From assembly GCF_002095395.1 (NCBI RefSeq), contig NZ_MJEI01000065.1, positions 1 to 45,717 on the forward strand: a stretch of DNA of 45,717 bases, read 5' to 3'. The stretch is from Williamsia sp. 1135 (GTDB lineage Bacteria > Actinomycetota > Actinomycetes > Mycobacteriales > Mycobacteriaceae). A program made the position numbers and the translations under genes. Below, piece by piece: positions 1,170 to 18,055 of the stretch. Positions within the stretch are counted from its first letter, which is position 1. Each line of letters opens with the position of its first letter. The notes below the pieces were generated by a model. The model worked only from the letters and a program-made list of their open reading frames with translations. It ran no database searches and was not told the DNA's origin.

Positions 1170-1210
1170 GTGAACATCCTCCCAGCGGAACCGCTGATCC
1201 CGCTAGCTCG

Positions 1211-1233
1211 GTGTCCACTACCTGGGGGGAACC
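1211..1233 (-). repeat. Terminal inverted repeat of left IS3 element
   Basis: Read on the minus strand this end is GGTTCCCCCCAGGTAGTGGA. The first ten bases are identical to the left end of the IS3 element at 44428. The inward edge is uncertain because the other end of this element is not in the window. Confidence 0.6.
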
Positions 1234-2432: not shown

Positions 2433-2858
2433 GTCGACCTGCTTCCTCTTGCGCGGCTCCATGTCGAGGGCGCCCTGGCGGGTGCTCGCCGCAATCGAAG
2501 TGTGGCTCCTATTGTGGCCTGAAGTCTCTTCGTTGCGGACTAGGAAACTGCTTGCCATCTGGTCGTTAGCTCAAGGAGCATCGAAGCACACTGGCGGGCA
2601 CCTTGCTGTGGGGTGGATATCTGCTCAGCGCGGCCGCGAGGACGCTGTCGCCGGCACCCGATTGATGCCAGTGATCCAGTTGCGGGTGGGTTCGCTGATC
2701 GACCCAATCAGATTGAAAATGTCACGGGCACGTTCAGCATTGTCCATCTCGAGCAATGACTCCATGTGCGAGACACGGTTGCGACTGAGCGACACTCAGA
2801 TTCGAAAGCTCGGCACCGAATTCGTCGCGCAGCTCAAGAAGCGCCAGGCGCTCGTCTG

Positions 2859-3203
2859 ATGAGCAAGAGTGGAAACCCCGAGAGCATCTATCGGCGCATT
2901 CTCGATGACATCGGCGGGACAGCCTGGAGCGCGTCGCAGGAGATCGTGAGCGGGGTCGAAACCGCTGTCCTCGTACGTCACGTAGAGCGATCTCTGGCGG
3001 GCTCTGCATTCGCGTTCAGTGGCGGGAAATTGGAAAGGTTTTCGGGGTATTTCAGCAGAGAACTACATTCATACGGACGCGAAGGCCTGCCGTGTCACCG
3101 ATGTGGCGCGCTGATCCGGCGCGAAGCGTTCATGAACCGTAGCTCGTTCGTCTGCCGGAAGTGCCAGCGGCCGCCAAGGCAGGGGAATGGTACGTGCCGC
3201 TGA
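2859..3203 (+). CDS. Hybrid ORF: unknown N-terminus joined to Fpg zinc finger
   Basis: An open frame of 114 residues starts at an ATG overlapping the stop of a short upstream frame (TGATG at 2857-2861). Residues 1 to about 61 (starting [19 protein letters not shown]) are unlike Fpg. The rest, from [13 protein letters not shown] onward, is an intact Fpg/Nei-type C4 zinc finger: C-x2-C (PCHRC), then C-x2-C (VCRKC). The catalytic N-terminal proline-glutamate domain and the H2TH domain of a real glycosylase are absent, so this cannot be a working DNA glycosylase. I read it as a junction formed when an element inserted at the fpg 3' end, leaving a chance or fused frame. Whether it is translated is unknown. 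Confidence 0.45.
3044..3203 (+). repeat. Fpg 3'-end repeat, copy 1 (intact zinc finger)
   Basis: Encodes [14 protein letters not shown], then four zinc-ligand cysteines, then a short QRPPRQ tail and a TGA. Compared by eye with copy 2 (12824) about five of six bases match, the match starts abruptly at GGGTAYTTC, and it continues about 15 bases past the stop (CATCGCA). The repeat is a direct repeat in the same orientation as smc and its neighbours. It marks the left edge of a 9.8-kb cassette. Confidence 0.85.
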
Positions 3204-3363
3204 GGGCGAGTCATCGCATGCACGCCTGAGGAGGTCGGCCGAGCGCCTCGAAGCCATCTTCGACGCCGATCCGAGATCCGTTCGTGTCGTCCGCACGTGG
3301 GCTAGGGCTCTCCGCAACGCAGGACACCGGCGGCACAGCCGCCAGCCAGATCCTCCTCGATGA
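3187..3363 (+). CDS. Small ORF (58 aa) upstream of ardA remnant
   Basis: ATG at 3187, with AGGGGA just upstream, opens a 58-residue frame ([20 protein letters not shown], then [20 protein letters not shown]). The sequence is basic, helical-looking and reads like coding sequence. It begins inside the last codons of the first Fpg-tail repeat in another frame and ends 22 bases before the ardA start, so it could be the first gene of that operon or a remnant. No family is recognised. Confidence 0.35.
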
Positions 3364-3385
3364 CCCGCCGTCGAGGAGGAACGAC

Positions 3386-3939
3386 ATGTCCGACTGCAAC
3401 GCCCCTTCTGTCTGGATGGGCTCGCTCGCTGCGTAACACGGAGCCCACGACGGCGTCCCGCGCCTCATCGGGAAGTTGGGTCGACGCGATCGACGCCGAC
3501 GGCGTCACCGTGGCCGATCTGCACGCCGGCACTGACGCGCCCTACGACGACGATGACGAGCTCTGGTCCCTCGACACGTCCGGAATACCTTCGGGCACGG
3601 GCGAGATGAGCCCCGCCGAGGCCACGGCCTGGGGCCTGGCATGTGCTCGTCGATCGACGAGCACCTGCCCGGCCTACATCGCGTGGTGCGCCACGGTGGA
3701 CCTCGACGACGGCCCGCCCGACGTCGACGAGTTCGTCGATTCCTATGCGGGAGTGGGACTCGTTCGGCGACTTGGCATCCCAGCTTGTCGAGAACCTTGG
3801 TTTGCTCGCCGAGGTGCCCGAGGAAGTGGCCCGGTACTTCGATCACGACTCGTACTGCAGGGACCTGCTGCTCTCGGGCGACTACAGCACCGTCGATGCT
3901 CCCGGCGGCGGCGGCGTCTAGGTGTTCCATTCCTACTGA
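3386..3939 (+). pseudogene. ardA: ardA antirestriction protein, decayed
   Basis: A good ribosome binding site (GAGGAGG, 3374-3380) precedes the ATG at 3386. The encoded pieces match ArdA in order but are scattered over three frames: SVWMGSLAA (stopped at 3434), then WVDAIDADGVTVADLHAG and ELWSLDTSGIP, then CATVDLDDGPPDVDEFVDSY, then WDSFGDLASQLVENLGLL and VARYFDHDSYCRDLLLSGDY. The last codons (GGGV-stop-VFHSY) contain TAG at 3919 where Tyr is expected. There are thus at least three frameshifts and one or two stops. ArdA proteins are DNA mimics that block type I restriction enzymes and travel on conjugative elements and phages. Its presence implies that the 9.8-kb cassette came from a mobile element that is now defective. 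Confidence 0.7.
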
Positions 3940-4053
3940 GAACCATCGCACGCACGACCCTGCCGGGTGGCACCCATCCGCCGGCCTCCTTCGTCGGCAG
4001 GCCGATGGACCGATCAGCTGTGGGTCACCATACATGAAAGGAGATCACCCCCA

Positions 4054-4424
4054 TTGATCTACGAGGACCGAATCGAACAGATCCCATTCGATCAACTCGT
4101 TCCCGGTCACGTGCTGTTCGACAGTGCCGCACCTTTACGCCGTGGTCGCCACCGGTGCGCTGCTCGTCTCGCCCGATCTGGCCGTCGTCGGCATCCGCGC
4201 ATGGACGACCGCTGGCAACCTAATCACCACCCCCGACACCGCATTGACCGCGCTCGACTGCCCGAACCGCCTGTGCCGCGTCTACGTCCCCCGCCACCGG
4301 CGGCCCCTGGCGCCCGCCCCGGCCCGGGCCGGGGGAGGACCCGCAGGACCCGGATGCCCGGCTCGACGGCATCGCCGACCGACTCCGGCCGCACATCGAC
4401 CCAGACCGACCTGATCGACGATGA
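4054..4424 (+). pseudogene. Hypothetical accessory gene, frameshifted
   Basis: A strong ribosome binding site (AAAGGAGATC, 4037-4046) precedes a TTG at 4054 beginning LIYEDRIEQIPFDQLVPGHV. The coding signal then moves to a second frame (LYAVVATGALLVSPDLAVVG, AWTTAGNLITTPDTALTALD) and ends in a third (EDPQDPDARLDGIADRLRPH, stop at 4422). It follows the ardA remnant in the same direction and carries the same kind of damage, so the two were probably one operon of a mobile element. The family is not recognised. Confidence 0.5.
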
Positions 4425-4427
4425 CAC

Positions 4428-4460
4428 GAGGCCCCGCGCCGAGATCCGGTGCGGGGCCTC
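4428..4460. terminator. Hairpin terminator between convergent genes
   Basis: GAGGCCCCGC at 4428-4437 is perfectly complementary to GCGGGGCCTC at 4451-4460, with a 13-base loop. It lies just after the stop of the broken plus-strand gene and just beyond the end of the minus-strand gene at 4473, so it could serve both directions. No clear T tract follows. Confidence 0.6.
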
Positions 4461-4472
4461 ACGCTTACCTGC

Positions 4473-5246
4473 TCAGGACGAGAAGGCCTCGTCGATCCAA
4501 TCGTCCCCGCGGTAGACCGCGTCGACCATCATGCCGATCGACGTGTACCCGGTCGCCGTCATCGTGGTGTCATCGCCGCCGTTAATAGCCTCGCCGTCGT
4601 CCGGGCGAGATCCCGCGTCCACCTTCAGGAACTTCATCCGGGAGATAGACCGGCAGTGCACCGCCACGGTCCCGCCGTCGGGGAAGTAGTGCTTCAGGCG
4701 TTCCACCACGACGTCGTCGGCCGGGTCGTCGTCGATGCACACCACGGTGCTGCGCACCCACGGGTACCTCTCGTCGCGGAAGTCCTGGTCGCGGTTGTTC
4801 TGCGCGAACCCGAACGTCGCGACCGTGCGCGGGTCACGCGTCTCGTGGCGGGCGTCCCATTGGTCGGCGAGCTGCTTCATGAAGAAGTTGTATCCGGAGT
4901 CGACCAGGTCTCCGTCGCCGGCGCGCAGCTCCCTGGCCACGGAGACCTCGAAGTCGTCGGGCCCCGGGCCAGTGCGCACCCGATGCACAACCGTGCCGTC
5001 CTCGACCGAGAAGGAGTCCATCACGTATCGGACCGGCCGCTCGCCGGTCGCGCGGAACGAGTCGACGTCGCCCTCGCGGGCGATCAGCTCGATCGTCCAG
5101 TCGTAGTACTTGCCGCCGCGGACCCCGTACCGCACGTGCAGCTCGGTGTTCACCGGGTTGCCGTTGCCATAGGGTCCCAGCGACCCGACGAACTCGTTGT
5201 ATTCCATACCCGTGGTCGGCACCTTGTAAGGCCTCGTCTCAGTCAT
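4473..5246 (-). CDS. Hypothetical protein, accessory cassette
   Basis: About 257 residues from the ATG at 5246; an in-frame TTG at 5285 would add 13 residues, and neither start has a strong ribosome binding site. The sequence is acidic and shows no membrane segment or signal peptide. It has a plausible globular pattern (TGMEYNEFVGSLGPYG, YYDWTIELIAREGDVDSF, DFEVSVARELRAGDG) but no motif I can place. It is convergent with the decayed ardA operon. Codon use is consistently high in G or C at the third position, so the frame is very probably real. Confidence 0.6.
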   Translation of the reverse strand: MTETRPYKVPTTGMEYNEFVGSLGPYGNGNPVNTELHVRYGVRGGKYYDWTIELIAREGDVDSFRATGERPVRYVMDSFSVEDGTVVHRVRTGPGPDDFEVSVARELRAGDGDLVDSGYNFFMKQLADQWDARHETRDPRTVATFGFAQNNRDQDFRDERYPWVRSTVVCIDDDPADDVVVERLKHYFPDGGTVAVHCRSISRMKFLKVDAGSRPDDGEAINGGDDTTMTATGYTSIGMMVDAVYRGDDWIDEAFSS

Positions 5247-5435
5247 ACCGGCGACGATAGTGCTCAGTGCAGACACCCTTTCCAAGACACGTGATCTTGG
5301 CGTGCAGTACCGCGACAGCCGTTAGCTAGGCGACACGAAACGGACGACAGCCGGCTGTGGGCTCCGACTTAGTAGAGGGAGAGCCCGGCGGCAGCCAAGG
5401 CATCGAACGGGACGTCAAATGGCGAACTGTCGTCG

Positions 5436-5807
5436 TCAGCCACGATTATTCGCCACCCAGGTCCCTCGGCGGTCTTTGCTTCCGGGCGGTCGAATCCTCA
5501 TCTGTGAGTTGAACACCGCTAGCACGCCCGGATACTCGTCGACCAGATCGACCATGAACGCGTCGTCCGACATGATGTTGTACCCGATGACCACTATTAG
5601 TGAGTCGACCTGGCGGCGCACCAACTCGTAGTACGCAATCGAATGCTGATTGTTCAACCCGCTGGTCGCCGCCACCACAGGCTTGCGCGCACCGCCGTTG
5701 TACATCCGCCTGCGCCACTGGGGTACTCCCGCGTAACAGCCCTGCGGCTGGTCGACGCTCATGGCCGTACTCGAGATGATCCGGCCACGCGAAGCCGATG
5801 TCGCCAC
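5436..5807 (-). CDS. Hypothetical protein, possible SIR2-like C-terminal fragment
   Basis: The minus-strand frame contains a well-formed segment: YYELVRRQVDSLIVVIGYNI, then MSDDAFMVDLVDEYPGVLAV. In SIR2-like and related Rossmann NADase proteins the last part of the fold often reads like this: a helix, then a hydrophobic strand ending in IGYS/N, then a D-rich turn. That similarity is my inference; the NAD-binding N-terminal part is missing, so at best this is a fragment. The start is uncertain (GTG 5807 or ATG 5762). It begins 12 bases after the lipoprotein gene ends, in the same direction. Confidence 0.35.
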   Translation of the reverse strand: MATSASRGRIISSTAMSVDQPQGCYAGVPQWRRRMYNGGARKPVVAATSGLNNQHSIAYYELVRRQVDSLIVVIGYNIMSDDAFMVDLVDEYPGVLAVFNSQMRIRPPGSKDRRGTWVANNRG

Positions 5808-5819
5808 CGGTCGGCTGCA

Positions 5820-6380
5820 TCAGCCGGTCACGACCTCCCACCGCGCCAGCTCCGCAGACTCCGACGGTTTGCCGTTCCACAGATGCGCCTGGAAGTCACT
5901 GTCCTTGAGCTTGATCTCACCGGTCGTGTCAGTCTCAGTGAAGCTCGCGTAGTGCGCGACGTACAGCGCGAAGACCTGCTCGCTGACCGGCGCAGCTTTG
6001 TAGGCCATGGCGAATGCCGTGGCCACCGGGCGCAACTCGTCGGTGGTCGTGATGTCGCCGCCGCACAAGTCGATAGCGATGGCGAACTCACCCGGATGGT
6101 CGCTGTCGGTCGACCGTCGGCCGGTCACCAGCGAGACGCCTCCAGGCAGCGCAACACTTTCCGCGACCGCCTGGGCCGCAGGGCCCTGGCCCTTATCCTC
6201 GCGTCCACCTTCGCTGAACGGCACCATGTCCCGGCACTCGCCTGCAGTGGCCGTGCTCGTGGCCGTGGTACCCGTGGTCTCGGCGTCGGTAGTGCTTTCG
6301 CTGCTACACCCGGCCAGCACTAGCGCCGCCGCTGCGGCCAGCGCGCCGCACATCTTCATGGTTCTCATGCGCATCAGCAT
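5820..6380 (-). CDS. Secreted lipoprotein of unknown function
   Basis: A 186-residue protein with a charged N-terminus (MRMRTMK), a hydrophobic core (ALAAAAALVLAGC) and a lipobox LAGC, so it should be lipidated at the Cys and held on the outer face of the membrane. A Thr/Ser/Ala-rich linker of about 25 residues precedes a small soluble domain that includes AIDLCGGDITTTDELRP and a WNGKPS motif near the end. Several in-frame ATGs at 6353-6380 make the exact start uncertain. It lies head-to-head with the HEPN-like gene at 6449. No enzymatic motif is visible. Confidence 0.65.
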   Translation of the reverse strand: MLMRMRTMKMCGALAAAAALVLAGCSSESTTDAETTGTTATSTATAGECRDMVPFSEGGREDKGQGPAAQAVAESVALPGGVSLVTGRRSTDSDHPGEFAIAIDLCGGDITTTDELRPVATAFAMAYKAAPVSEQVFALYVAHYASFTETDTTGEIKLKDSDFQAHLWNGKPSESAELARWEVVTG

Positions 6381-6448
6381 CTCAGGTCAGCGCCGGGGAG
6401 TGTTGCTGCCCACGTCGATACCTGCACCGACACAACATCCTTAGTCCT

Positions 6449-6970
6449 GTGAACGAGTCGGCGCAGGTGAGCCGTCGCCATGAGTTCTCGCCGGTGCTGA
6501 GATACTCAGCCACCGTGAGCTATGAATCCCTGTACCCCCGAGAACTTGCTGAGCACGTTGGCTACGTCGTTCTAGAAGCCGCCGAGACCGAAGACCTGAT
6601 CGGTGAACTGCTCGTGCTGCGCGGTGGTCTCGACAAACCTGATCCGAACTGGTGGGCCAGCGGCGAAGCGCTGGCCAAAGCCATCGAGAAGATCGGCGAT
6701 CCGGCGCTTCAACCGATCGCCGATGAGATGAGAGAACTACTCGCCCAGCGCAATGCATTGGTGCACGGATTGTTCCTCGGCTATGGACAGCCCCGGGTGA
6801 CCATGAAGCGTCATCGAGGCAACAAGGGCGACGCACCGTCCTTCCAGTTCCGGGGAGAGTGGACTGACGCAGCACTGGCAGATGTGGCCCATCGTTTCCA
6901 CCTACTCGGCCGAATGGTCGATAACGCGATCAGTGACGCGATGGGTATCACCTCGCCGTCAAGTCCGTGA
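6449..6970 (+). CDS. HEPN-like domain protein
   Basis: A predicted all-helical protein of up to 173 residues (GTG start at 6449; the in-frame GTG at 6514 is an alternative, giving about 151). It contains LLAQRNALVHGLF, which fits the R-N-x3-H signature of HEPN domains, and the preceding helix (ADEMRELL) is also typical. Many HEPN proteins are metal-independent RNases in toxin-antitoxin, abortive infection and CRISPR systems; others are non-catalytic. There is no adjacent nucleotidyltransferase antitoxin, so a classical HEPN-MNT pair is not seen. Its position in an island with other defence-like genes supports a defensive role, but that is inference. Confidence 0.5.
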   Translation: MNESAQVSRRHEFSPVLRYSATVSYESLYPRELAEHVGYVVLEAAETEDLIGELLVLRGGLDKPDPNWWASGEALAKAIEKIGDPALQPIADEMRELLAQRNALVHGLFLGYGQPRVTMKRHRGNKGDAPSFQFRGEWTDAALADVAHRFHLLGRMVDNAISDAMGITSPSSP

Positions 6971-7603
6971 GTGTTCGATCAGCCGGACCAACCGACACCC
7001 CCTGATCTCGATCGGCGGTCTCCGGGGTGCATCGTGATCGACACCGTCGGCTCTCGCCCTCACTTCCATCAGGCTGTCCGCAAGCCGGCGGGTGAGCGGA
7101 CACTCGGCGCCATACGCCCACCGGGGGCGAACGGTGTCCACAAGACCTGGCGGGTGGTGTCGCCCCGTCGACGCACCCTTACCGAGCCAGCAGGGGGCTG
7201 AGAAAGGTGCCGCATAAGGGATCAAACCTGCTGGTAATGGGTGCTACCGCTGGCCTTGAGGCCGCCAAATGAACCAGCGCTGCGTCAGACCAGGAGTCGC
7301 CTGTTAGGCAGTGCGATCTGCGAGTCTTAGAAACTTCAGCAAGGGTGCTGGTGGCATCCATAACAATGCCATCACACGGTTTCGGTCTCCATGTAAAAGC
7401 CGTACATCGGTCGCCGGCCAAGGCTTCGTCGAAACTGGGCTATGGGAGCGGCCTGCGAACCCAGACCACGTGAAACGTGTGCCCCGCAGCCTCCGCAAAA
7501 CTCGCTGCCACGTTGACCGCTGTACGGCCCAACACGGCGGTGAACTTAACTGCAGCTCGGGAGTTCGCAACACCCCGTCAGAGTCGCGCTGGCCGGTTTC
7601 GCC
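6971..7603. other. Intergenic stretch, no convincing gene
   Basis: Several short frames occur on both strands, but none has a domain or consistent codon signal. The section holds a degenerate repeat (7074-7108) that is also found upstream of the gene at 13877, including an inverted GTCCGC...GCGGAC. The part at about 7490-7600 has lower third-position GC and looks foreign to the neighbouring genes. It separates the plus-strand HEPN-like gene from the end of the hydrolase gene. Confidence 0.4.
7074..7108 (+). repeat. Degenerate 35-bp repeat, copy A
   Basis: CTGTCCGCAAGCCGGCGGGT and the following bases match 13909-13943 at about 28 of 35 positions. It includes the inverted pair GTCCGC / GCGGAC. 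Function unknown; it could be an operator or a recombination-related site. Confidence 0.4.
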
Positions 7604-8875
7604 TTATCGGAGTCCGGCGGCATGGCGCATTACCCAAAACCGCTGTGCGGTCTCAGTGGTCTGCGGTAGCAGCCCAAATCGATCGTCGGGGCCGAGGTTG
7701 TTGCGGATCAGATGATAGATGTCGGACACAACCGTCAGCGTCTGGAATACATACGAGTGCCCCAGAAAATCCGACTCCACCTCAGTGGCGTCTATAGTAT
7801 CCACGCCATCGACCACCACAACGGAGTTTCCAGCCCGAGCCCACCCCGCGATGCTCTGAGATGCGCCCAGCGCCCGATCGTTTCGCGAAACATACAGGGT
7901 GTACCGATTAGCCTCTCGCGGAAACGATTCCGAACGGTGCGCGAACACTTCAGCATCAACATCGGGAGCAGCGAAGATCACGTGTCCCAACGTCAGAGGG
8001 ACGCCAGCGGCCAGAGCTTCGGTCACCAATCGGTTGCCCATGCTGTGCGCCACAATGTGCACGGGCGTCCCCTCGGGCAGTGCATCGCCAAGAATCTGGA
8101 CGAACCTCCTGAAGTAACGTTGACTCGCCTCGACGCTAGTACTGTCGACAACGTAACTGTTGAGGTTTCCAGCGGACGGCCAACTATAGACCGCAGCAAT
8201 GCCTTTGAAATCGTAGGCTTCGGCCATTCGCGCTACCTGCCGGACCGCATCGGCAAACGTGACGTTGTATCCGTGGACGAAGAGTAAGACTTCCAGTCCT
8301 TGGCCTTGTTCATCGCCGTTGGGAGGCGGCAACTCCCCGGCGAGCTCAGACACTTTCTCGCGCAAGTTCTCGGTTGGCGTGAGCGTGATGACCGGCTTCC
8401 TTGATCTGCCGAATCCCAACGGCCGCCGCCGCATTCGCGGACGCTCTCGGGACTCGTGGTGATCAGGCAATCCGATCTTGGCGACCCCGAAGCGTAACGC
8501 TCGTCCTCGGTCGCCACCGAAGTCGAGGTCGTCGCCCTCGCGAATTGATCGATCGGTCGCATACAGCACCTGAAGCCAACCGAGTCGAACCGGCGTCGAC
8601 TGGGCGTTGCCAATTCCCCTCTCCTCGCCCAGGTGCCGCAGCATCTGCGCATCAGCCACCTTGTCCGCGAAGTCAGGAGACTCATCCAGGACCGCTAGCA
8701 CGCGGTTGTGGGCAGCATCGATATCCTCGCCCTCCGCGCCAAGGAGTGCGGCATCGAGGTCACGGAGGGCATCGATGAGGTCCGCCTCGTTTCGAATCGC
8801 GGACAACCCAGAGGCTTCCCACACGTCCGCGAGCGCGGTTACCAGGGCCTCTGCACTGCTCGCATTCGATTCCAT
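7604..8875 (-). CDS. Alpha/beta hydrolase, DUF900 type, coupled to CHAT protease
   Basis: A 423-residue protein. Residues 1 to about 95 form a helical acidic region (VTALADVWEASGLSAIRNEA, LIDALRDLDAALLGAEGEDI) unlike the enzyme part. From about 100 (VLYATDRSIR) it matches the DUF900/COG4782 alpha/beta hydrolases: an oxyanion strand LLFVHGYNVTF near 200, nucleophile Ser near 278 in VAHSMGNRL, acid Asp near 332 in SRNDRAL and His near 373 in FLGHSYV. So the full catalytic triad is present and it should be an active esterase or lipase. Its ATG overlaps the stop of the TPR-CHAT gene (TGATG) with GGAGG just upstream, showing translational coupling. I infer that the N-terminal region may be a linker or docking domain acted on by the protease. 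Confidence 0.75.
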   Translation of the reverse strand: MESNASSAEALVTALADVWEASGLSAIRNEADLIDALRDLDAALLGAEGEDIDAAHNRVLAVLDESPDFADKVADAQMLRHLGEERGIGNAQSTPVRLGWLQVLYATDRSIREGDDLDFGGDRGRALRFGVAKIGLPDHHESRERPRMRRRPLGFGRSRKPVITLTPTENLREKVSELAGELPPPNGDEQGQGLEVLLFVHGYNVTFADAVRQVARMAEAYDFKGIAAVYSWPSAGNLNSYVVDSTSVEASQRYFRRFVQILGDALPEGTPVHIVAHSMGNRLVTEALAAGVPLTLGHVIFAAPDVDAEVFAHRSESFPREANRYTLYVSRNDRALGASQSIAGWARAGNSVVVVDGVDTIDATEVESDFLGHSYVFQTLTVVSDIYHLIRNNLGPDDRFGLLPQTTETAQRFWVMRHAAGLR

Positions 8876-11800
8876 CAGTCCTCCTTTGTTGCCGGGTGAA
8901 TTGGCCTTTCAGCCGCGTCCACAGGTGGTCGATCCCGCACATCGACGTGAGCCAGACCCCAGCCGAAGAATGCATACGGCGCCCACGACAGCGGGTCGAG
9001 AGCAGTCACCCGACCACGACGAAGTGAATCTACTGCTTGGTGCATCGCCCGCACGATGGCATCACCAGGACGGTGTTGGCTGGCGCGGTTCAGCGTTGAA
9101 TAGATGGCATTGACAACGGGAATGGTCGACGAATCGCGAAGCGGCATCGTGGCAGCGACCACTTCTCGATAGCCTGCTTGCCGAGCAGCGCCCGCCAGGT
9201 GCAGTGCCTCGTTGGGTAGGCGAACATCTCCTGACGCCGAGTCGCACGAAAGGAGGACTGCCAACTCGCCACCCGGTACCTGGCCGTCCGCCAGTTCCCC
9301 CAATGTGAAAGTCCCGTCCCGCAAGCGAATACCCGACTCCACCGAATTCTCATCGAGATGTCCGTGTGCGGTCACATGAAGGTAGCGATGCCTGGTGATG
9401 GCCTCCCGTACAGCGTCTACCGTCACGTCTGCATCGAGCAGAGGGGTGATGGGGATCGACGGCAGTGAATCGCTCACCGCTTGATACTCCGCTGGAATGG
9501 CTTTGATGCCGCCGATCGAGTCGGTCGCGAGGTAAAGCAAGCCCTTGACAGCCGACGTCTCGTTCGATGAACGAGCGACGTCTAACGACCACACGGTCGG
9601 TAGGTAGGCCGAGATCGCGATGTCGGCGAGACACGGCCATTCCTCAGAGTTGGCTCGGGCAATCTGCCGCGACGAGCGAGGGTGACGGCCGGCCGCGTGG
9701 AGCGGAAGCAGCGCGAACTGACCGATCGGCGACCACCAAATCCTGGCAAGCTCCTGACCGTGGTGGTGGGGCAGGCAGTCAACGATGGGTCCTACGACGC
9801 AATCCCAAAGCCACTCGAAGCAATCAAACAGGGCGTGCCGGCGACGCTCGACACTCGACCATGCACCCGACCGGTCACTAGTGGAACCCAGCGCCGCCCG
9901 CAAACTAGCAACCTGCTTGTCGAGTTCGTCGATTCCGGCCTTGGGAAGATGCACTGTTTGGGTGCCGATGGCGTCGCCCACCACAAGCGCGGTCGCTCCC
10001 TCCGTGCCGGGGACGACTGACACCAAAGTCCCGGGCACGTGAAGATTCTCATAGACCCGCGGATCAATCGACGGGACCACGAGCGCCGATCCGGTAGAAT
10101 GAGCTGCCGCCCTTCGCTGTTCACGCTCCGCGTTTGCGCTGTCGGGCAATACACCTGGTGCGTCACGCGAATCGCGGAGAGAAGCGAGGCCAGCCAAAGC
10201 CGAACGCTGTTCTGCACCAACGTTGTCGAGGACTGTCCGAACATGCATCGACTGCCGCCACAGTATCGATCGGATCTGATCCGCCCACGCCATCGCCACA
10301 TGGTTCTGCGACTGCGAAATGGCGAACGTCACCGCCCTGATCATCGCGCCGGACATCTGTTCGAGCAACAGTTGCCGCTCAACCACATTCATGCCTATCC
10401 AGGCAACGTCGCTGGCGAGTGTCACAGCCTGCCGATGAGCCGCCATCGCTTGGTCGGCGTCTGCGTACGCCTCAGCGTCCTGCGCCCACAGGACGGACTG
10501 TGTGAACTGGTGAGCTGGCGGTATGCCGGTTAAGCTGGCGGCGCGACGCTGAACATTCAGAATGTCTTCCAACGTTGCGGCGGTCGGATGGACGCGGTGC
10601 AATAGGCGCAGAGCCCGGGCGTGATTCGCCAGGGCCGGCAGAAGGCGAGGCCCGCTATACCCCGCAGAGGTAGCCGCCGCATCAGCAGCATTGATGGCCC
10701 GCGTGATGTCGGCGGTGGCAGCAGATGTCCGCCCCGACTTCTCCCGGAGCGCGGCCCGTTGAAGGTACACGTCTGAGAGATTGGCTTGGCGAAATGCCCG
10801 GTCCCCATGATCTTCCGGGAGTATCTCGAGAGCAGTGACCAGCCATTCGATGCCCTCATCGAGCAATGACGGCGATGCCGTGTAGTGCGCCTTCGCGGCG
10901 AGAGAAAGGCCGAGGTTCGACGCGTAGCCCGACTGTTCTGTCGGTCGACCTTCGGCCAGTAACTCAGCCTGCTCAAACAACGCGATCGCGTCGGTGAGAT
11001 CGGAGAGGCGTGACTTGCTTTCGAATCCTCGGCCAGCGCGTTGCCCAGGTTGCTTGCAAATCCCGGCCACAGCAAGGACTGGCGATCAGTCGCATCGACT
11101 GCTTTGTGCGACTCGGTGATCGCTTCTTCGAGATCGTCGATGTTTAGAGTCGACTCGAAGCGTGCCCGGAGAGCAAGTGCGAGGTCGTTCTGCCGCTCAC
11201 AGATACGCATACCGATGGGCTCAGGCCTGGTGAGGGCCTCCCGGTACAGCTCGATTGCTCTATCGAGGTCGGCGAGTACCGCACGTTCATCGAAGTTGTC
11301 GCTGAGGATGACCGCCAGGTTCGTCTGTCGCGCAGCGTATTCCCGATGTTCCTCGGGGGTTGAGTCGAGCGACTGCGTCGTGTAGTTGAACGCGAGATCC
11401 AGATCAGCCAGCGACCTGGCTACCACGAAGCGGGACCGAAGGGCGTTAGCTGTCATCGTGAGCGCCGCCGCTCGCCTGAGTCCCGGCTTCGTCAGGATGC
11501 GTAAAGCCTTCTCGCCGGCGTCCACCGCGTCACCGAGAAGTCCTGCATCATCGAACATCTCACCGGCATCTCGTAGCGCTGCAGAAAAAGTCGACAGGCC
11601 GATACCCGCGTCCTCCGCGGTCACCTCTTGAGCGGCAGTTCCCGTTCGATACAGGTCGAGACTCCTGCGGACCAACTGTTTGTCGACCGTCTCATATCCG
11701 AGGTCGCTCGCGACCGATGCCGCCGAAATGTGGACATACGCGAAATCCGGGTGATCGTCGATCCCCGCATCCAACACCTCTTGAATGAGAGCCCACGCCC

Positions 11801-12617
11801 TTTCCAGATGCTGGGCGCTACCTGCTTCCCGTGATCGCTGGCGCAGCAGACCACAGAGATTGGCGGTGAGGCGCGGCCAGTCGTCGTTGTCCGCATCGAG
11901 ATAGCTCAATGCGCGTTCGCTTGCCGAAATCGCTTCGACGATGAGTTCAGGCTCCGGGCGCAGATCATGCAGTCGGTCAAGTGAATTCGCAAGGCTCATC
12001 CACGCCTGCGCTAGGACCCCGCGATCCTCGACCGGCAACGAGGTCGCTCGCCGCGCGTTGTCGACGGCATCCACCAAGTCAGCGAGTGGCGAGTCATCGA
12101 GACTCAATGTCTCTGCGAGATTGGCGAGCACCTGGGCGAGTACGTCGACATCCAGGTCGTCGCATGTCGCAGCCTGCTTCCAAAGCGACGCTGCACGTTG
12201 CTCGTCGCCGTCTGCCCGCCGGCTCATGAGCCCGACCGCGAGATTGGTTTGCGTGTGCGCCCGCAAGAAGCAGTCATCATCCTCATAGATGTGAGCCAGC
12301 GCGCGTTCCCACAGGTGAATGCACTCTGCGAGCAACTCATCGCTACGCACGACCTCGAACTTCGACCACACCATCAAAGCGAAGTCAGTAAGATATTCCG
12401 GGTCATTCGGGTGATAGTCATCCACGATCAACTGCGCTCGCCGAATCGCATTCTCGAGATCGTCGTAGTCCCGGGTTTCGTTGTACCGATCGTGCAGCCG
12501 ATTCGCGACCATCCAGTGCAGGTCAGGCCAGTCTTCGTCGCTACGGTCCAAGCCGTCGATGGCAACACGCATGTCGTTCAAGTTGGGCTCGAAGTTGTCA
12601 TCATCGTCGCCGTTCAT
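8875..12617 (-). CDS. TPR-CHAT caspase-like protease, with apparent frameshift near 11028
   Basis: Read with one correction this is a protein of about 1,247 residues. The N-terminal 900 or so residues are helical repeats of the TPR kind (for example [60 protein letters not shown]). The C-terminal third is a CHAT domain, a clan CD cysteine protease related to caspases and separase: catalytic His in [10 protein letters not shown] (about 9360), catalytic Cys in [10 protein letters not shown] (about 9245), and the usual [10 protein letters not shown] end. The start is the ATG at 12617 after CACAGG. Near 11028 the frame changes: NLGNALAE in one frame continues as [14 protein letters not shown] in the next, as if one base were missing. 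As it stands the TPR part would end in an out-of-frame tail of about 150 residues. TPR-CHAT proteins act in several bacterial defence systems as proteases that activate a neighbouring effector; here the coupled neighbour is a hydrolase. Confidence 0.75.
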
Positions 12618-12823
12618 CCTGTGATTATGTACTTTCCGAACCGCGACTGTGCGCCGCTGACGGCGGCGCCCAGGCCAGTCCGCGGCGGCTATCACTCGCG
12701 AAAGCCGCACCAAACGCGAATTGGTGCTCGGCTAGCTCGCGACCGGGCAAACACACTGCCCTCGCGGCGCCTGACAGGCATCTTCGGTCGCATCATTGCG
12801 AATGTCATTGGATGCGCTAAGTC
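12618..12823. other. Upstream region of the TPR-CHAT operon
   Basis: On the minus strand TACATAAT lies 6 bases before the ATG at 12617. It resembles a -10 box but is so close that any transcript would be nearly leaderless. A GC-rich inverted sequence (GCGCCGCTGACGGCGGCGC, 12651-12669) sits farther upstream. No gene is seen before the second Fpg-tail repeat. Confidence 0.35.
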
Positions 12824-12983
12824 AGGGTACTTCAGCAGAGAGCTACATTCATACGGCCGGGAAGGGCTGCCGTGCCACCGATGCGATACGCCGATCAGGC
12901 GGGAGGCGTTCATGAACCGCAGCTCGTTCTACTGCCCGAAGTGCCAGCGACCGTCCAGGCAGGTGAGCGGCACCCGCCGCTGA
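12824..12983 (+). repeat. Fpg 3'-end repeat, copy 2 (intact zinc finger)
   Basis: Encodes [14 protein letters not shown] followed by PCHRC and, after [11 protein letters not shown], then QRPSRQ and a TGA at 12981. All four zinc ligands are present. It is the closest match to copy 1 (43 of 52 residues by eye). The sequence 5' of AGGGTACTTC is unrelated to copy 1, so the boundary is sharp. No glycosylase body precedes it; the upstream DNA is the promoter region of the minus-strand protease operon. Confidence 0.85.
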
Positions 12984-13019
12984 GGAGGCGCCATCGCACT
13001 GGATGCATCCAGCCTGGCG

Positions 13020-13877
13020 TCAGTCCTTCTTCGGCATCCGCGAGTGGACATCCTTTGCTGCGTCCGTCATTCGCGTCTGCGCGTCATAACCGCACAGGTC
13101 GAGCCACCGCCACGTTCCCCACTGAAGAGTGTCGGCCGCGGCCTCCATGACCTCGGTGATGTACGACCCGTCGGGTATACGCGTCGTCCGGTAATGACCC
13201 GGCTCGTACTCGTCGCCCAGTTCGACGTCATACCCCTCCACGCCGAACCAATTCTGGCCGTGGCCGGCGCCGCTCGCGGCGTTCCACAGGTACGACCAGC
13301 GCTCGGGGTCGCCGCCGACGGTGGTGGCGGCCGCCTTAACCAACCCCTCGTACCCCGGAGGCTTGTCCTTCGGGGAGACCCCGACGCCGAGCTCCTCGGC
13401 CCGGGCGACCAGCTCGTCCATCCGCACGTCGATCTTCTCCACGGGCAAGCCGCCTGCCTTCCGGGCCTTGCGCGCGTAGCCGAAGTCCTTATGCATCACC
13501 CGCAGGAGTCGACGCACGCAGTCACGAGGGTCCTTCGGGTCCAGCAGCCAGACTGCGTGGGCTCCGGACTCGAGACCTGCCCTGCCCATCAGCAGATAGG
13601 GGAGGAAGCGCACCTGGTTGATGTGGCCCTCCACGAACTCGTACGGCGCGACCAGGTCGGCCCACAGCATCATGTGCTCGGTGCCCGACGTTAGATAGCC
13701 GCGCGACCACACGGAGGTCTTCTCCCACTTGTACGCGATGTCGGCCATTCGCATGAAGCTGCCCGGCTTGGGGTCGACTACGTCAGCGAGCGCCAGGTCG
13801 CATGCGCGTACCACGTAGGTCGCGGTTGCCCATCGGTGCTGATGGTCCGCGCTCAGGAAGCCAGCGGGAGTGGTCAT
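13020..13877 (-). CDS. Hypothetical protein, sole gene of a 1.2-kb cassette
   Basis: A 285-residue soluble protein from the ATG at 13877. It is mostly helical, with many Trp residues. Near residue 205 it has YLWNAASGAGHGQNWFG, a Ser-x4-His-Gly pattern within a helix that recurs in several poorly characterised actinobacterial HEPN-like or DUF5677-like proteins; no R-N-x3-H signature is present, so I do not call it a HEPN RNase. Other clear segments are GRAGLESGAHAVWLLDPKD and VRRLLRVMHKDFGYARKARK. It fills the space between two Fpg-tail repeats and points against them. Such a single-gene cassette inside a defence-like island suggests a stand-alone defence gene, but nothing in the protein proves it. 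Confidence 0.65.
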   Translation of the reverse strand: MTTPAGFLSADHQHRWATATYVVRACDLALADVVDPKPGSFMRMADIAYKWEKTSVWSRGYLTSGTEHMMLWADLVAPYEFVEGHINQVRFLPYLLMGRAGLESGAHAVWLLDPKDPRDCVRRLLRVMHKDFGYARKARKAGGLPVEKIDVRMDELVARAEELGVGVSPKDKPPGYEGLVKAAATTVGGDPERWSYLWNAASGAGHGQNWFGVEGYDVELGDEYEPGHYRTTRIPDGSYITEVMEAAADTLQWGTWRWLDLCGYDAQTRMTDAAKDVHSRMPKKD

Positions 13878-13908
13878 CCCGCGATCATCTCACTCCGCGT
13901 CGAATCCA

Positions 13909-13943
13909 CCGTCTGCAAGCCGGCCGTTGACCGGACGCTCGAC
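13909..13943 (+). repeat. Degenerate 35-bp repeat, copy B
   Basis: CCGTCTGCAAGCCGGCCGTT and the following bases match 7074-7108 at about 28 of 35 positions. It lies about 30 bases upstream of the start of the 13877 gene, where an operator or promoter element would be, and 50 bases before the third Fpg-tail repeat. Confidence 0.4.
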
Positions 13944-13992
13944 GATCGGGGGTCCAGCGGGGCCAACTAGTGCCCGTATGGCCCGTCCGCCC

Positions 13993-14142
13993 AGGGAACT
14001 GCATTCACATGGTCAAGAAGGTCCGCCGTGCGACAGGTGCGGGACGCCGATTATGTGGGAAGCGTTCACGAACCGGAGTTCGTTCTTCTGCCGCGTTGCC
14101 AGCGACAACAGTGGGCCCGGTTTGTCTCTGGACAAATGGTAA
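13993..14142 (+). repeat. Fpg 3'-end repeat, copy 3 (frameshifted)
   Basis: Encodes RELHSHGQEGPPCDRCGTPI, then EAFTNRSSFFC, then loses the frame: the DNA TTCTGCCGCGTTGCCAGCGA needs one extra C near 14092 to read the expected C-P-R-C-Q-R. The fourth zinc ligand is therefore lost and the frame runs on to a stop at 14140. Homology to the other copies starts at AGGGAACT, slightly inside the boundary used by copies 1, 2 and 4. Tyr and Arg of the conserved YGRE are changed to His and Gln, so this copy is no longer under selection. Confidence 0.75.
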
Positions 14143-14223
14143 GCAAGGGCAAGGGGTAGCGGGTTGCTCTAGGAGAAGGGTGTCGGAGCCGTAACTGTCG
14201 GGACTTCTGCGTAGTCTCACGCC

Positions 14224-16509
14224 ATGCTTCGAAGTCTTGACGTCCACAGTCAGTGGCGCTCCCTTGCGCCTGGCTTCTGGCCGAAGGAGGTCCCGTTCGG
14301 CAAGCGAACTATCGTCTACGGGCACAACGGGAGCGGTAAGTCCACCATCGCGGACTTGTTGCTGGCGCTCGCCGGTGACGGTGCCCCTGTGGACACGTCC
14401 TGGCAGGCAGAGGATGGAACTTGCTATCGCGTGGCCAGTGGAGCGGCCGGCCCCGCCAGTGGTGTAGCGGTGTTCACCAAGCGGTGGGTGGAGGAGAACC
14501 TCTCAGCATTTCTTGATGGCGATTCGGCGTCGGCCATCGTGACATTGGGTAGACAGGCCATCTCGGCGAAGGAGGAGGAGGAGCGCCTCACTGAAGAAAT
14601 CGCGTCTTTCGTCAAGTCCGCCCAGGAGCACACACGGACGGCCGAGGAACTCGACAAGAAGGCCGAGGCGCTGGCGCGCGAGCTCCAGAACCTCATCGTT
14701 GCGGAGCTGGAGGATGTCGACCGACGGCGGTTTACCAAGCACCGGTATCAACTGCCGACGGTGAAGGCCGATCTTGCTGGGTTCAAGGGAGAGGTGCCGA
14801 GTACGGCTGACCATGCCGCTGCGCTGATGCATCTTGGGGAGGGCACGCCGGAGAAGATTCCAGTTCCCCGCCCGATGCCGGATGCCGTCATTGCCAGCTT
14901 GCGCGACATAGACGTACTTCTGTCTGAGACTCCAACTCGGGAAGCTCTGGCGTCACTGGAGGGCCATCCCGAGGTTCAGCGATGGGTTGAGGAGGGCCGT
15001 GAACTGCACGAGACTGAGGTCGAATGTTTGTTCTGCGCTTCGCCCCTTACCGAGCAGCGCCGCGAAGCTCTTGCGAAGCACTTCGACGAAAGCTGGCTGA
15101 GTATCCGCGCCCGCGCACGCACATTGCGTGATCAGGTCAATCAAGAAGCACGAGACTTGGCAGCGTGGGCGCGTGAGTGGCCTGACTCGCCGCTGATCGC
15201 AGGCGAGCTCCGTCCTACCTATCAAGAGGCTGTCGAGGCTATCCAAGCGGCCGTAGCGACTAGGGTTGACGTCCTCGCAGCCGTCGAGGAGACCCTTGGC
15301 GTGAAGGAACTGGACCCAAGCGCAACGCCCACTTCGCCAGACCTCACCCCGTTGGGTACGCCACCCAGAACGGCGGTGGTGGATGAGCTTGTTGCAACAC
15401 ACAACGAGCAGGCCGACGACCACGATCGACTCCGTTCCGAGAACATCAACACAGTTCTCGATCACCTGGTTGGCTCACGCAGCGCACGGTTCGCGGAACT
15501 TAGGAAGCAGGCTGGCGAAGCATCCGAAAAGGGAGAGGCTGATTCGCGGGCGGCTTCCGTGAGCGATCGCAGGTTGAGGAGAATACGCGAGCAGAAGCTG
15601 ACGACCAGCGAGACTGCTACAAGGCTCACCGAAGATCTGTCGAGGGTCTTCGGGCGGGGCCACCTCTCGGTGCGCGTCACCGACGACGGTAAGTCCTACA
15701 CTTGCTGGCGCGGCGGCCTGGCTGCAACTCATCTCAGCGAAGGTGAGCGCACCACCCTTTCGCTCCTGTACTTCCTGCGTCAGTTGGAGGATGAAAGTCG
15801 CAGGATTGACCCGGGCAAGCGGATCGTGATCATCGATGACCCCTCCAGCTCCTTGGACCGGGAGTCGGTGTTCGCTACACACCAATGGCTGGTCTCTGCT
15901 CTCGAGAACGCGGGACAGTTTGTCGTCTTCACCCATGACTTCAACCTGCTCCGCCTGTTCCTGAAGTCGCAGAAGAACCAGTGGGACACTTCGTTCAGGA
16001 AAGTGAAGAACAACGATCCCAACGAAATTCGCTACCCACGTGTCGCCTTCATCGAGTGCTTCGCAAGTAACCAAGGTGGGCAGCGCCAGACGCGCATCGC
16101 ACCTTTGCCCGACCTTCTCCGTAAGAGCACCTCCGAGTACGCCTACCTGTTCTCGATGGTCATGAAAGGCCTTGCCGAGCCAATCGACCACGAGCGCTTG
16201 TTCCTACTCCCCAACGCGGCACGCCGCGTGCTGGAGAGCTTCGCGAGCTATAACACGCCGGATCTGAGCCACTTCGACCAGCAACTTGAGGCAATGATCG
16301 AAGCGCCGGAACTCCAGCCATACCGTGATGTCTACGACTTCTGTAACAGGTGGTCCCATGGCGAAGGGAGTGAGGCGGTGGACGTTCTCGACGTACGGGC
16401 AGTTTACAACTCGGTCCGGCGATGCATGGAGTTCCTACGGGCGGCTGACCTCGATCACTTCACTCGCCTCTGCAAGGCCACCTCGGTTGATGCCAGTGTC
16501 CTCGATTGA
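14224..16509 (+). CDS. RloC/PrrC-like AAA ATPase (AAA_13 type), possible anticodon nuclease
   Basis: A 761-residue ABC/SMC-type ATPase: Walker A GHNGSGKST at 33-41, ABC signature LSEGERTTLS near 504, Walker B IVIIDDPSSSLD near 534 and H-loop FTHD near 571. Between them is a coiled-coil insert with a Cys-x2-Cys (ECLFC, 268-271) at its tip, the position of the zinc hook in RloC and Rad50. The region after the H-loop contains RRVLE (R667, E671) and later NRWSH (H712); AAA_13 proteins PrrC and RloC use an Arg-x3-Glu...His triad to cut tRNA anticodon loops. The spacing from Glu to His (41) is longer than in PrrC as I recall it, so nuclease activity is inferred, not shown. It is alone in its cassette, with no restriction enzyme beside it. 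Confidence 0.75.
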   Translation: MLRSLDVHSQWRSLAPGFWPKEVPFGKRTIVYGHNGSGKSTIADLLLALAGDGAPVDTSWQAEDGTCYRVASGAAGPASGVAVFTKRWVEENLSAFLDGDSASAIVTLGRQAISAKEEEERLTEEIASFVKSAQEHTRTAEELDKKAEALARELQNLIVAELEDVDRRRFTKHRYQLPTVKADLAGFKGEVPSTADHAAALMHLGEGTPEKIPVPRPMPDAVIASLRDIDVLLSETPTREALASLEGHPEVQRWVEEGRELHETEVECLFCASPLTEQRREALAKHFDESWLSIRARARTLRDQVNQEARDLAAWAREWPDSPLIAGELRPTYQEAVEAIQAAVATRVDVLAAVEETLGVKELDPSATPTSPDLTPLGTPPRTAVVDELVATHNEQADDHDRLRSENINTVLDHLVGSRSARFAELRKQAGEASEKGEADSRAASVSDRRLRRIREQKLTTSETATRLTEDLSRVFGRGHLSVRVTDDGKSYTCWRGGLAATHLSEGERTTLSLLYFLRQLEDESRRIDPGKRIVIIDDPSSSLDRESVFATHQWLVSALENAGQFVVFTHDFNLLRLFLKSQKNQWDTSFRKVKNNDPNEIRYPRVAFIECFASNQGGQRQTRIAPLPDLLRKSTSEYAYLFSMVMKGLAEPIDHERLFLLPNAARRVLESFASYNTPDLSHFDQQLEAMIEAPELQPYRDVYDFCNRWSHGEGSEAVDVLDVRAVYNSVRRCMEFLRAADLDHFTRLCKATSVDASVLD

Positions 16510-16720
16510 CCGCCATATTTTCGAGCCTGCTGCTATGCGGTTCGTCCTTTCTTGGACGAACTTCCCGGAAACCCCGGGATGGATCAGTCCCTCCTCGGGG
16601 GTGACTGAACCGAAGGTAGCGGCCGCCTCCGACAACCATTGGGGCCTGAACCTCAGGAGACTGTCCTGATAATCGTTCCGGGTACGGGAACTAGACCCGC
16701 ATCAACGACAAACGGCCAGT
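16510..16720. other. Spacer between ATPase gene and last Fpg-tail repeat
   Basis: No gene seen. Contains an inverted sequence TTCCCGGAAACCCCGGGA (16562-16579) and a hairpin CAGTC...GACTG (about 16588-16608), which could terminate the ATPase transcript although no T tract follows. Confidence 0.35.
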
Positions 16721-16863
16721 CGGGGTACTTCGAGCGTTCGCTCAACGCCTATGGGCGAGAGGACAAGCCCTGCCGGCGTTGCGGTGCAGCGATGCGACGG
16801 GAGCAGTTCATGAATCGCAGTTCTTTCAGCGGCCCGAAGTGCCAGGTTCGCCCGCGCTTCTAG
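16721..16863 (+). repeat. Fpg 3'-end repeat, copy 4, next to the conserved chromosome
   Basis: Encodes [27 protein letters not shown] and PKC, then QVRPRF and a TAG. The third zinc ligand is changed to Gly (GGC at 16831 where TGC is expected), so the finger is broken. Only the tail of the gene is present. The next genes are a nitroreductase and then the OsmC-acyP-smc block that follows fpg in Mycobacteriales, so this copy is most likely the original chromosomal 3' end displaced from its gene body by the cassettes to its left. Confidence 0.8.
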
Positions 16864-16890: not shown

Positions 16891-17535
16891 ATGACCGTGA
16901 ACCTGACGCCCGACGAACTGCTGACCACCACCCGAACCGTGCGTAAGCGGCTGGACCTGACGAAACCCGTGCCCATCGAACTCGTCAAAGAGTGCCTCGA
17001 GATCGCGCTCCAGGCGCCGTCGGGATCCAATCGTCAAGGCTGGCAGTGGATTGTCGTCACCGACCCAGAGGTACGCGCGGCGATCGGGAAGATCTACGGC
17101 GAACTCGTCGACGAGTATCTCGACTCGAACCAGTCGGCAGCCAAACTGTTCGCGGACGATCCTGAGCGTGCCCCTGTGCAGCAGCGGGTCGGTGGCAGCG
17201 TCGCGTGGCTCGGCGAGCACATGGGCGAGGTCCCCGTTCTGGTGATCCCTTGTATCAAGGCCGGCGCGACGCTACCGGCCGGGAATCAGGCCGGCCTCTG
17301 GGGGTCGTTGCTGCCCGCGGCGTGGAGTTTTGCCCTCGCTGCACGTGCCCGCGGCCTCGGCACCGCGTGGACCACGCTGCATCTGCAGCGGGAGGCGGAA
17401 GTCGCGGAACTCCTCGAGATTCCCGCCGGTTTCCATCAGGCGGCGTTGATCCCGACGGCGTTCTACACGGGGGACACGTTCAAGCCTGCGCCGCGCGAAC
17501 CCCTCGACAACCTGCTTCACATCGACCGTTGGTGA
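16891..17535 (+). CDS. Nitroreductase family protein
   Basis: A 214-residue FMN-dependent oxidoreductase of the nitroreductase fold. Visible markers are TRTVRKRLDLTKPV at the N-terminus (FMN phosphate contact), APSGSNRQGWQWIVV at about 43-57, and ARARGLGTAWTTLHL near 160 (second FMN site). Such enzymes reduce nitroaromatics, quinones or flavin substrates with NAD(P)H; the natural substrate cannot be told. It starts 28 bases after the last Fpg-tail repeat and precedes the OsmC gene by about 60 bases, so it could share a transcript with it. Confidence 0.85.
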   Translation: MTVNLTPDELLTTTRTVRKRLDLTKPVPIELVKECLEIALQAPSGSNRQGWQWIVVTDPEVRAAIGKIYGELVDEYLDSNQSAAKLFADDPERAPVQQRVGGSVAWLGEHMGEVPVLVIPCIKAGATLPAGNQAGLWGSLLPAAWSFALAARARGLGTAWTTLHLQREAEVAELLEIPAGFHQAALIPTAFYTGDTFKPAPREPLDNLLHIDRW

Positions 17536-17601
17536 CCCGCGTCGCGTCGTCTCTCCCCGCTGAGGTCCCGCGGAATTGCCGGGTGGGGCGGCGTGTTCAA
17601 T

Positions 17602-18051: not shown

Positions 18052-18055
18052 CACC

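Follow-up and report, generated by a model that had tools for sequence, protein, structure and literature searches.

Introduction

The staphylococcal cassette chromosome (SCC) elements at rlmH/orfX rely on a serine recombinase, sit in a conserved coding gene at its 3′ end, and include composite as well as recombinase-less members. Among the islands at ssrA in Dehalococcoides, 16 have an integration module and 15 are without one, and for the latter the consulted part of the report proposes cis-mobilization (PMC3146451). At the level of the recombination site, a motif bound by the zinc domain of a Listeria integrase lies 5 bp closer to the centre in the bacterial attachment site (attB) than in the phage attachment site (attP), and the consulted part of the same paper extends such motifs, with one exception, to several other large serine integrases (Rutherford 2013, PMC3783163). 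Here we analyze an array of repeated gene ends in Williamsia sp. 1135. The window, by which we mean the whole stretch under study, is the entire contig NZ_MJEI01000065.1 (C95; 45,717 bases) of a draft genome of 107 contigs, and it carries four partial copies, or tails, of fpg, each encoding the zinc finger of the DNA repair enzyme Fpg (MutM) and separated from the next by an unrelated cassette. We propose that the 3′ end of fpg is probably an attachment site of the large-serine-integrase type, and that the array was built by repeated insertion of cassettes at this site. Genomes, contigs, and loci are denoted by G, C, and L numbers, respectively; the features are compiled in Table 1.

Results

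Tails in the Window and the Complete fpg Gene

A repeat finder run over the window returned T1 and T2, which share 82% identity across 177 nt on the same strand at a spacing of 9780 bp; T3 and T4 were not among the repeats returned. A search of the genome with the tail peptide recovers all four tails together with a complete fpg gene on contig C9: The strongest matches lie at C95:12825 (E 1.8e-30), C9:51946 (E 2.8e-29), and C95:3045 (E 9.8e-28), followed by weaker ones for T4 (C95:16723, E 1.6e-15) and T3 (C95:13993, E 3.7e-13). T1 and T2 score above the curated cut-off of the Pfam family zf-FPG_IleRS, and the decayed tails T3 and T4 remain under it (18.0 and 17.2 bits; cut-off 21.3). The tail-peptide search agrees with a preliminary description of the window, which had counted four Fpg-tail repeats in one orientation; the sharp left border GGGTAYTTC that it had ascribed to copies 1, 2, and 4 is indeed present in T1, T2, and T4 and absent from T3. 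As a control for specificity, we searched 24 loci for other C-terminal segments of 50 residues. As these loci had been picked for having tails, only zeros are informative: The segments of rnc, OsmC, and acyP were found in 20, 18, and 20 loci, respectively, and were duplicated in none, and the fpg tail occurs more than once in 19 of the 24. The nitroreductase segment was found in just one locus and is therefore weakly informative.

The full-length fpg gene, which had been expected to the left of the array, lies on C9 and bears a tail of foreign type, T0. It is followed, on the opposite strand, by a gene for a TIR protein (PADLOC spbK, E 3.3e-11) and a PDC-S60-like gene (E 2e-9), after which the contig ends. 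Cassette A is thus split by an assembly gap: C9 ends within it, and C95 starts inside an IS3-type element. Because fpg is directly followed by a nitroreductase gene in all eight same-genus loci, we infer that C9 and C95 adjoin via cassette A; a complete fpg elsewhere combined with the lack of a homologue at this locus in relatives is therefore not what is found. The preliminary description had placed the last tail immediately before the OsmC, acyP, and smc genes, and it was right about the flank, not about the immediacy, as the nitroreductase gene intervenes. OsmC, acyP, and smc come straight after the nitroreductase gene in four of the eight same-genus loci, and the other four contain no OsmC within the 6.7–7.1 kb examined behind it. 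At the Williamsia muralis locus L026 the order is kept, with OsmC, acyP, and smc 8.1 kb past the nitroreductase gene; the intervening 8.1 kb (L026:11558-19671) resemble by eye a potassium-transport (kdp) operon.

Native and Foreign Tail Lineages

The tails fall into two types. T0, T1, and T2 are mutually 83–85% identical and share 78–83% of their nucleotides with the fpg tail of G045, which belongs to this same element lineage. T4, by comparison, is just 61–64% identical to T0, T1, and T2, and it matches the fpg tails of the same-genus genomes G007 (93%), G005 (91%), and G002 (89%); the fpg tails of all eight same-genus genomes are of the T4 type. The G007 tail and T4 differ by nine codon changes, four of which replace a residue, one of these a zinc cysteine. 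The body of the fpg gene is 99% identical between our genome and G007, although the tails differ. T4 is thus the native tail, displaced, and fpg now bears a foreign one.

That T0, T1, and T2 form one non-native lineage is further suggested by AGCAGAGARCTACATTCATACGG, which is retained in the element tails of two genera (T0–T2 here, G045) and recurs with three differences in G208 from a third genus. We count this for an element lineage, as the sequence is retained across genera although AGA, CTA, and TCA are locally rare (1.1, 2.5, and 3.6 per 1000 among 4442 codons of nine neighbouring genes). Moreover, the tails are the more decayed the farther they lie from fpg, as predicted by serial insertion beside the gene. 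G007 offers an empty site for comparison, and each of the eight same-genus genomes has a single fpg at the locus, with no orphan tail revealed by a search at E ≤ 0.001; the remaining matches sit in open frames of at least 270 residues that encode other Fpg/Nei-like or unrelated proteins. Consequently, serial insertion with displacement is well supported on the sequence level, and with it site-specific replacement of the fpg tail.

A Family-Wide Hotspot

The tail is matched at E ≤ 1e-9 in 392 of 401 genomes of the family, and 47 of these, which had multiple matches or top scores, were re-searched. Extra tails downstream of fpg occur in at least 19 of the 401 genomes and in nine of 31 genera; these counts are minimal, since decayed tails score poorly and most genomes were not re-searched. 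The interval between fpg and OsmC thus contains zero, one, two, or more tails in relatives, and the arrangement is also found in single-contig genomes such as G079, G299, G351, and G174. In G334, the extra copy begins at Fpg residue 103. Beyond the family, G792 from a different family of the same order likewise has a cassette with a decayed tail.

Fpg-type tails also occur away from fpg, at L200:9635-9757 and L199:10652-10774, with an attP-like core (AAGTC-GG ... CTACATTCATACGG in L200). Besides its tail, the L200 stretch holds a gene for a tyrosine integrase and one related to PDC-S06 (48% identity to that of the window), and judged from this stretch, cassettes may ride in other elements. L199 and L200 are 92.6% identical over 3.2 kb including the tail; further on, L199 has transposase-like genes (by eye) and L200 the PDC-S06 gene. 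Tail-like stretches distant from fpg are present in two more genomes (L201:4880-4990, L202:6521-6619).

Junctions and Geometry of the Proposed Attachment Site

We aligned 24 orphan tails to analyze their junctions. In 15 of them an exact AGTC precedes the GG of the glycine codon, which gives the core AGTC-N-GG and accords with att sites that share one specificity at this locus. Half-sites were scored for the 18 orphans with a clear register, omitting T3, one doubtful G281 tail, G039, G056, G351, and G104. Counted outward from the GG, positions 18–28 on the element side carry a motif close to TGACRTTSATG, strictly present in 12 of the 18, while native fpg has TGACGTTGACG at 13–23. The two profiles match best at a shift of −5 bp: The score of 7.88 is reached by none of 2000 column shuffles, and the next-best shifts score 4.65 and 4.16, at the 6-bp period of Val–Asn codons. 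For the left and right halves of attP, shift 0 gives the best match, if only narrowly (3.32 versus 2.56). Hence, the displacement by 5 bp between attP and attB that is described for large serine integrases is seen in the site family overall and not in T1, T2, and T4. The L168 locus contains a perfect 36-nt palindrome about 27–62 nt upstream of its tail at 9060, by the half-site (by eye), and similar inverted repeats apparently occur in the right ends of G072, G099, and G020.

Integrases and a Recurrent Helix-Turn-Helix Gene

As had been noted from the letters alone, the window contains no integrase: There is no match within it to our serine-integrase hidden Markov models (HMMs), and the 11 PF00589 (tyrosine integrase) matches in this genome all lie outside C9 and C95. 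The recombinase HMMs were built from 21 serine-integrase and 30 tyrosine-integrase open reading frames (ORFs) and replaced a crude catalytic-motif scan, whose two tyrosine-integrase hits were taken as chance. Beside a displaced tail of fpg, a recombinase was found in a single relative: In G045, a 470-residue serine integrase (PF00239, E 2.1e-24; PF07508, E 4.3e-15) starts 44 bp from a displaced tail, and the HMMs match both this integrase and a 195-residue resolvase in the same element. Viral contigs contain eight relatives of the G045 integrase (33–43% identity) and no match to the DNA pattern of the attP half of the element.

A helix-turn-helix gene recurs beside the tails, with tblastn relatives in L165, L170 (twice), L176, L178, L197, and L198. 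Pfam assigns HTH_17 in L165 and to a gene near the L175 integrase, and the L178 gene scores slightly under the cut-off. This gene may encode a directionality factor.

Cassettes and Cargo

Known or candidate defence genes are found in two cassettes of the array, namely PDC-S06 in D and the spbK-like TIR gene and PDC-S60-like gene in A; the scanned ORFs of B and C gave no PADLOC match. In cassette B, the CHAT and TPR-like frames (8875..12713) apparently represent a single gene, broken near 11.0 kb by a frameshift or sequencing error, and its pieces were searched separately. The window contains no tRNA gene as an alternative target, nor do L199, L200, L174, L175, and L025. In relatives, defence cargo comprises SIR2-HerA, type I and type II/IIG restriction–modification systems, PDC-S06 (E 1.1e-272), PDC-S09, Abi_2, and HipA, and other cargo comprises oxidoreductases, a transporter, a glycosidase, a histidine kinase, and TetR regulators. 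Defence cargo is thus common, not universal: The defence-like genes of the preliminary description hold for part of the cargo, and relatives carry metabolic and regulatory genes as well. The same candidate defence gene occurs in fpg cassettes of two genera (L178:12001-12420 and L025:4546-5544; 79% over 140 residues). No conjugation family is among the matches of 28 scanned ORFs from relatives' cassettes and 11 from this array, in a scan that was not systematic and left many ORFs aside.

The cassettes have modular ends. In G063 and G299, both of one genus, the last 67 nt before the tail are 95.5% identical and nothing else is common in the 700 nt compared; the cargo differs as well (an HNH gene in G299 versus a 98-residue ORF without Pfam match in G063). 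G047 and G371, from two genera, have 347 nt at 86% and 113 nt at 92% in common, and the DNA behind the tails of G020 and G174, again from two genera, is 85% identical across 480 nt. Extra full-length fpg genes in G079, G020, and G159 (two copies) are 81–86% identical over three genera, whereas identity among the first fpg genes in the same genomes is just 55–57%, which indicates that some cassettes carry a spare gene. In L165 and L198, this full-length fpg stands immediately after a gene of MarR–HTH_17 type. A search with the element tail returned 25 phage records, with identities below 60% throughout, and 48 plasmid records, of which none exceeded 80% (73% at best among the matches listed); many of the records listed are annotated as mutM or unannotated.

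Table 1. Features of the array, its flanks, and related loci (positions without prefix refer to the window)
Feature	Position	Strand	Description
Complete fpg	C9:51229-52131		300 aa; after rnc, 2.9 kb from contig end; ends in T0
Cassette A, left part	L025:4133-7008		TIR gene and PDC-S60-like gene
Cassette A, right-hand part	1..3041	.	Between fpg on C9 and T1; insertion sequence, then 252-aa ORF
IS3-type insertion sequence	1..1190	-	orfA 864-1169; typed by eye from ORFs, not by family search
252-aa ORF	1800-2558	-	No Pfam or PADLOC match
Possible C-terminal remnant of HTH_17 excisionase-like gene	2785..2856	+	56% over 23 aa, E 0.012, weak
T1	3042..3218	+	Displaced fpg tail, element lineage; zinc cysteines intact
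Cassette B	3219..12821	.	CHAT gene, overlapping TPR-like ORF, DUF900 gene, several ORFs without Pfam match
DUF900 alpha/beta hydrolase	7604..8875	-	Pfam E 2.6e-40
CHAT-domain protein	8875-11070	-	Pfam E 2.2e-27
TPR-like ORF overlapping CHAT gene	10557-12713	-	No PADLOC match; TPR-like by eye, outside Pfam scan
T2	12822..12998	+	Displaced fpg tail, element lineage; zinc cysteines intact
Cassette C	12999..13983	.	Single 285-aa gene 13020-13877 (-), no Pfam or PADLOC match
T3	about 13984..14097	+	Decayed fpg tail without its core and last zinc cysteine
Cassette D	14098..16700	.	Single gene for 761-aa AAA_13 ATPase
AAA_13 ATPase, candidate defence protein PDC-S06	14224..16509	+	Pfam E 7.8e-85; PADLOC E 1.5e-108
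T4	16723..16857 (16701..16863 with borders, including left 22 nt)	+	Displaced native fpg tail; zinc Cys to Gly
Nitroreductase	16891-17535	+	Between T4 and OsmC
Native right flank: nitroreductase, OsmC, acyP	16891..18355	+
Native right flank: smc	18429..22055	+
Mobile full-length fpg lineage	L165:5039-5866, L198:4300-5130, L170:12814-13641, L171:4394-5221		Three genera
Extra tails on contig of fpg	G039, G047, G056, G063, G072, G079, G099, G104, G159, G174, G281, G299, G312, G334, G351, G371
Extra tails across contig break	G020, G045, this genome

Discussion

The order of tails within the contig, the displaced native tail, the empty sites of relatives, the common core, the 5-bp motif shift, and the G045 integrase beside a tail can all be read from the sequences; the half-site geometry and the one example in cis in G045 are what point to a serine integrase. 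The preliminary description had proposed serial insertion into fpg with the older tail pushed downstream, and the foreign-type tail on fpg, the native one at the far end, and relatives with zero, one, two, or more tails speak for it. In the mechanism that we favour, a circular cassette would carry attP, and an entire Fpg tail, about 47 codons long and codon-compatible, would make up the right half of this site. With recombination taking place at the GG in the conserved glycine codon (Ser-Gly-Tyr-Phe), the likely crossover dinucleotide, the host codons would be fused to the tail of the cassette: Fpg would remain full-length as a presumably functional chimera, and the previous tail would move to the far side of the cassette. 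Repeated rounds would yield the order fpg-T0 / A / T1 / B / T2 / C / T3 / D / T4-native flank. The window cassettes would have been moved by an integrase in trans or have lost their own after insertion, and their cargo may be retained for its benefit to the host.

Several points weigh against this interpretation. The join of C9 and C95 rests on gene order and not on contiguous assembly, and the G045 element is likewise divided between two contigs. In the HMM searches, 24 complete cassettes, three of them from the window, gave no hit for an integrase of either the serine or the tyrosine type. At E ≤ 1e-80, the G045 integrase has no match among the remaining 393 of 394 class-level genomes, and the next matches in the family are 44–45% identical and have no tail within about 1.5 kb on either side. 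With regard to the site, 6 of the 18 scored orphans are without the strict motif, including T1, T2 (one base off), and T4 and thus all scored tails of the window; the left half-site of T4 (16701-16722) resembles the native fpg left half with one indel rather than the element-side motif. As the left half in fpg is coding DNA with a Val–Asn repeat of period 6, the shift test is not fully independent. Finally, integrases are not expected to act again on the attL that they have formed; repeated insertion therefore requires tails that mimic attB or several integrases.

Nine of the 24 orphan tails are without the exact core (T1, T3, both G159 tails, T2 of G174, G039, G056, G351, and G104), and we count these for homologous recombination. 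On this account, the tail was first duplicated either accidentally or through a single element, whereupon crossing over with tails on imported DNA added further cassettes or exchanged them. The preliminary description had named gain and loss by homologous recombination between tails as its alternative, which is not required to account for the array. The 83–85% identity of T0–T2 would suit such a process, and the G334 copy and the full extra fpg genes of G079, G020, and G159 show that not all duplications begin at the core. Nevertheless, we consider it improbable, for crossing over would predict junctions scattered within the tail, yet one core and one element-side motif, which is absent from fpg at that spacing, recur in many junctions across genera, and G063 and G299 have different cargo yet nearly identical last 67 nt before the tail. 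Considerably closer to the favoured explanation, and a variant of it rather than its opposite, is the idea that each cassette arrived as a full-size element whose integrase was later deleted, with no special mover of small cassettes; we grant it a little less than an even chance. The G045 integrase retained at the expected position fits, as do the decay of T3 and T4 and the transposase genes (named by eye) in cassette A and the G174 cassette. It is harder to reconcile with cassettes of 0.6–1.9 kb that retain the half-site at most 30 bp from the tail, while the integrase, which in G045 is only 44 bp off, was detected in none of the 24 complete cassettes.

Going beyond insertion at fpg, one might envisage an integron-like trade in cassettes, each with a common cap at the right end (the attP half, often joined by the HTH_17 gene for directionality), cargo of any kind, and an Fpg tail, some with a spare full-length fpg, which occasional serine-integrase elements would move in trans and whose every capture would swap the Fpg zinc finger; we regard this extension as rather unlikely. 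That the tails are functional stand-alone zinc-finger genes is hardly credible: T1 and T2 do retain four cysteines and an open frame runs through each, but T3 and T4 are missing cysteines, the sequences before the tails differ and show no common start, and no such tail was found in the eight same-genus genomes. An assembly artefact might be suspected in a draft of 107 contigs with fpg and the array on separate ones; with four different tails on one contig and like arrangements in single-contig genomes, its probability is close to nil.

If insertion at the 3′ end of fpg is accepted, it maps a hotspot for the gain of defence and other cargo in an actinobacterial family, in which a housekeeping DNA repair enzyme has its zinc-finger end repeatedly exchanged by mobile DNA. 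The leftover fpg ends would constitute a record of past insertions, the order of which could be read from tail decay. Moreover, the model predicts a testable pair of integrase and att site and raises the testable question by which route recombinase-less cassettes reach the exact site.

We read the array as an accretion of integrase-less, CIME-like cassettes at fpg, where CIME denotes cis-mobilizable elements. In the CIME and integrative and conjugative element (ICE) accretion arrays described in the consulted part of PMC5704250, integrase-less elements that keep their att sites are likewise stacked at one 3′ end, and the complete cassettes here agree in having no detectable integrase of their own (0 of 24 by HMM). 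CIMEs are, however, decayed ICEs or integrative and mobilizable elements (PMC5704250), and the unsystematic scan of 28 ORFs from relatives gave no conjugation family. The ssrA islands of Dehalococcoides are similar in their tandem position downstream of one gene, in the repeat of its 3′ end that bounds each of them, and in combining a serine recombinase with many islands without an integration module. They differ in their target, an RNA gene with a 20-bp repeat as opposed to 47 codons within the coding sequence of a DNA repair gene, in their CcrB-like recombinase with a partner, and in cargo that includes reductive dehalogenases (PMC3146451, consulted part). SCC is set apart by ccr and rlmH, as the window has no detectable serine recombinase, the target is fpg, and host phylum and repeat length are different. 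With elements of large serine integrases the fpg sites share the attP/attB half-site architecture and, in G045, the integrase by the att site, as far as the consulted parts of PMC3783163 and PMC10083194 describe it; the complete cassettes, without detectable integrase, are unlike them, and only G045 has the integrase beside att. An integron would have IntI next to attI, and neither C9 nor C95 has a PF00589 match.

No report of fpg or mutM as an integration site was found in the consulted parts of the open-licence literature searched, and neither word occurs in the consulted main text of PMC10083194. The M. tuberculosis study PMC2734929 on fpg and tandem repeats is unrelated: In its consulted part, the repeats lie upstream of the gene. 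The suggestion of an undescribed system therefore stands, within this literature, for the fpg target and not for cassette accretion, which is a known process. Accretion at a 3′ end is of a known kind; it is the fpg target, the length of the tail, and the near absence of integrases that set this array apart.

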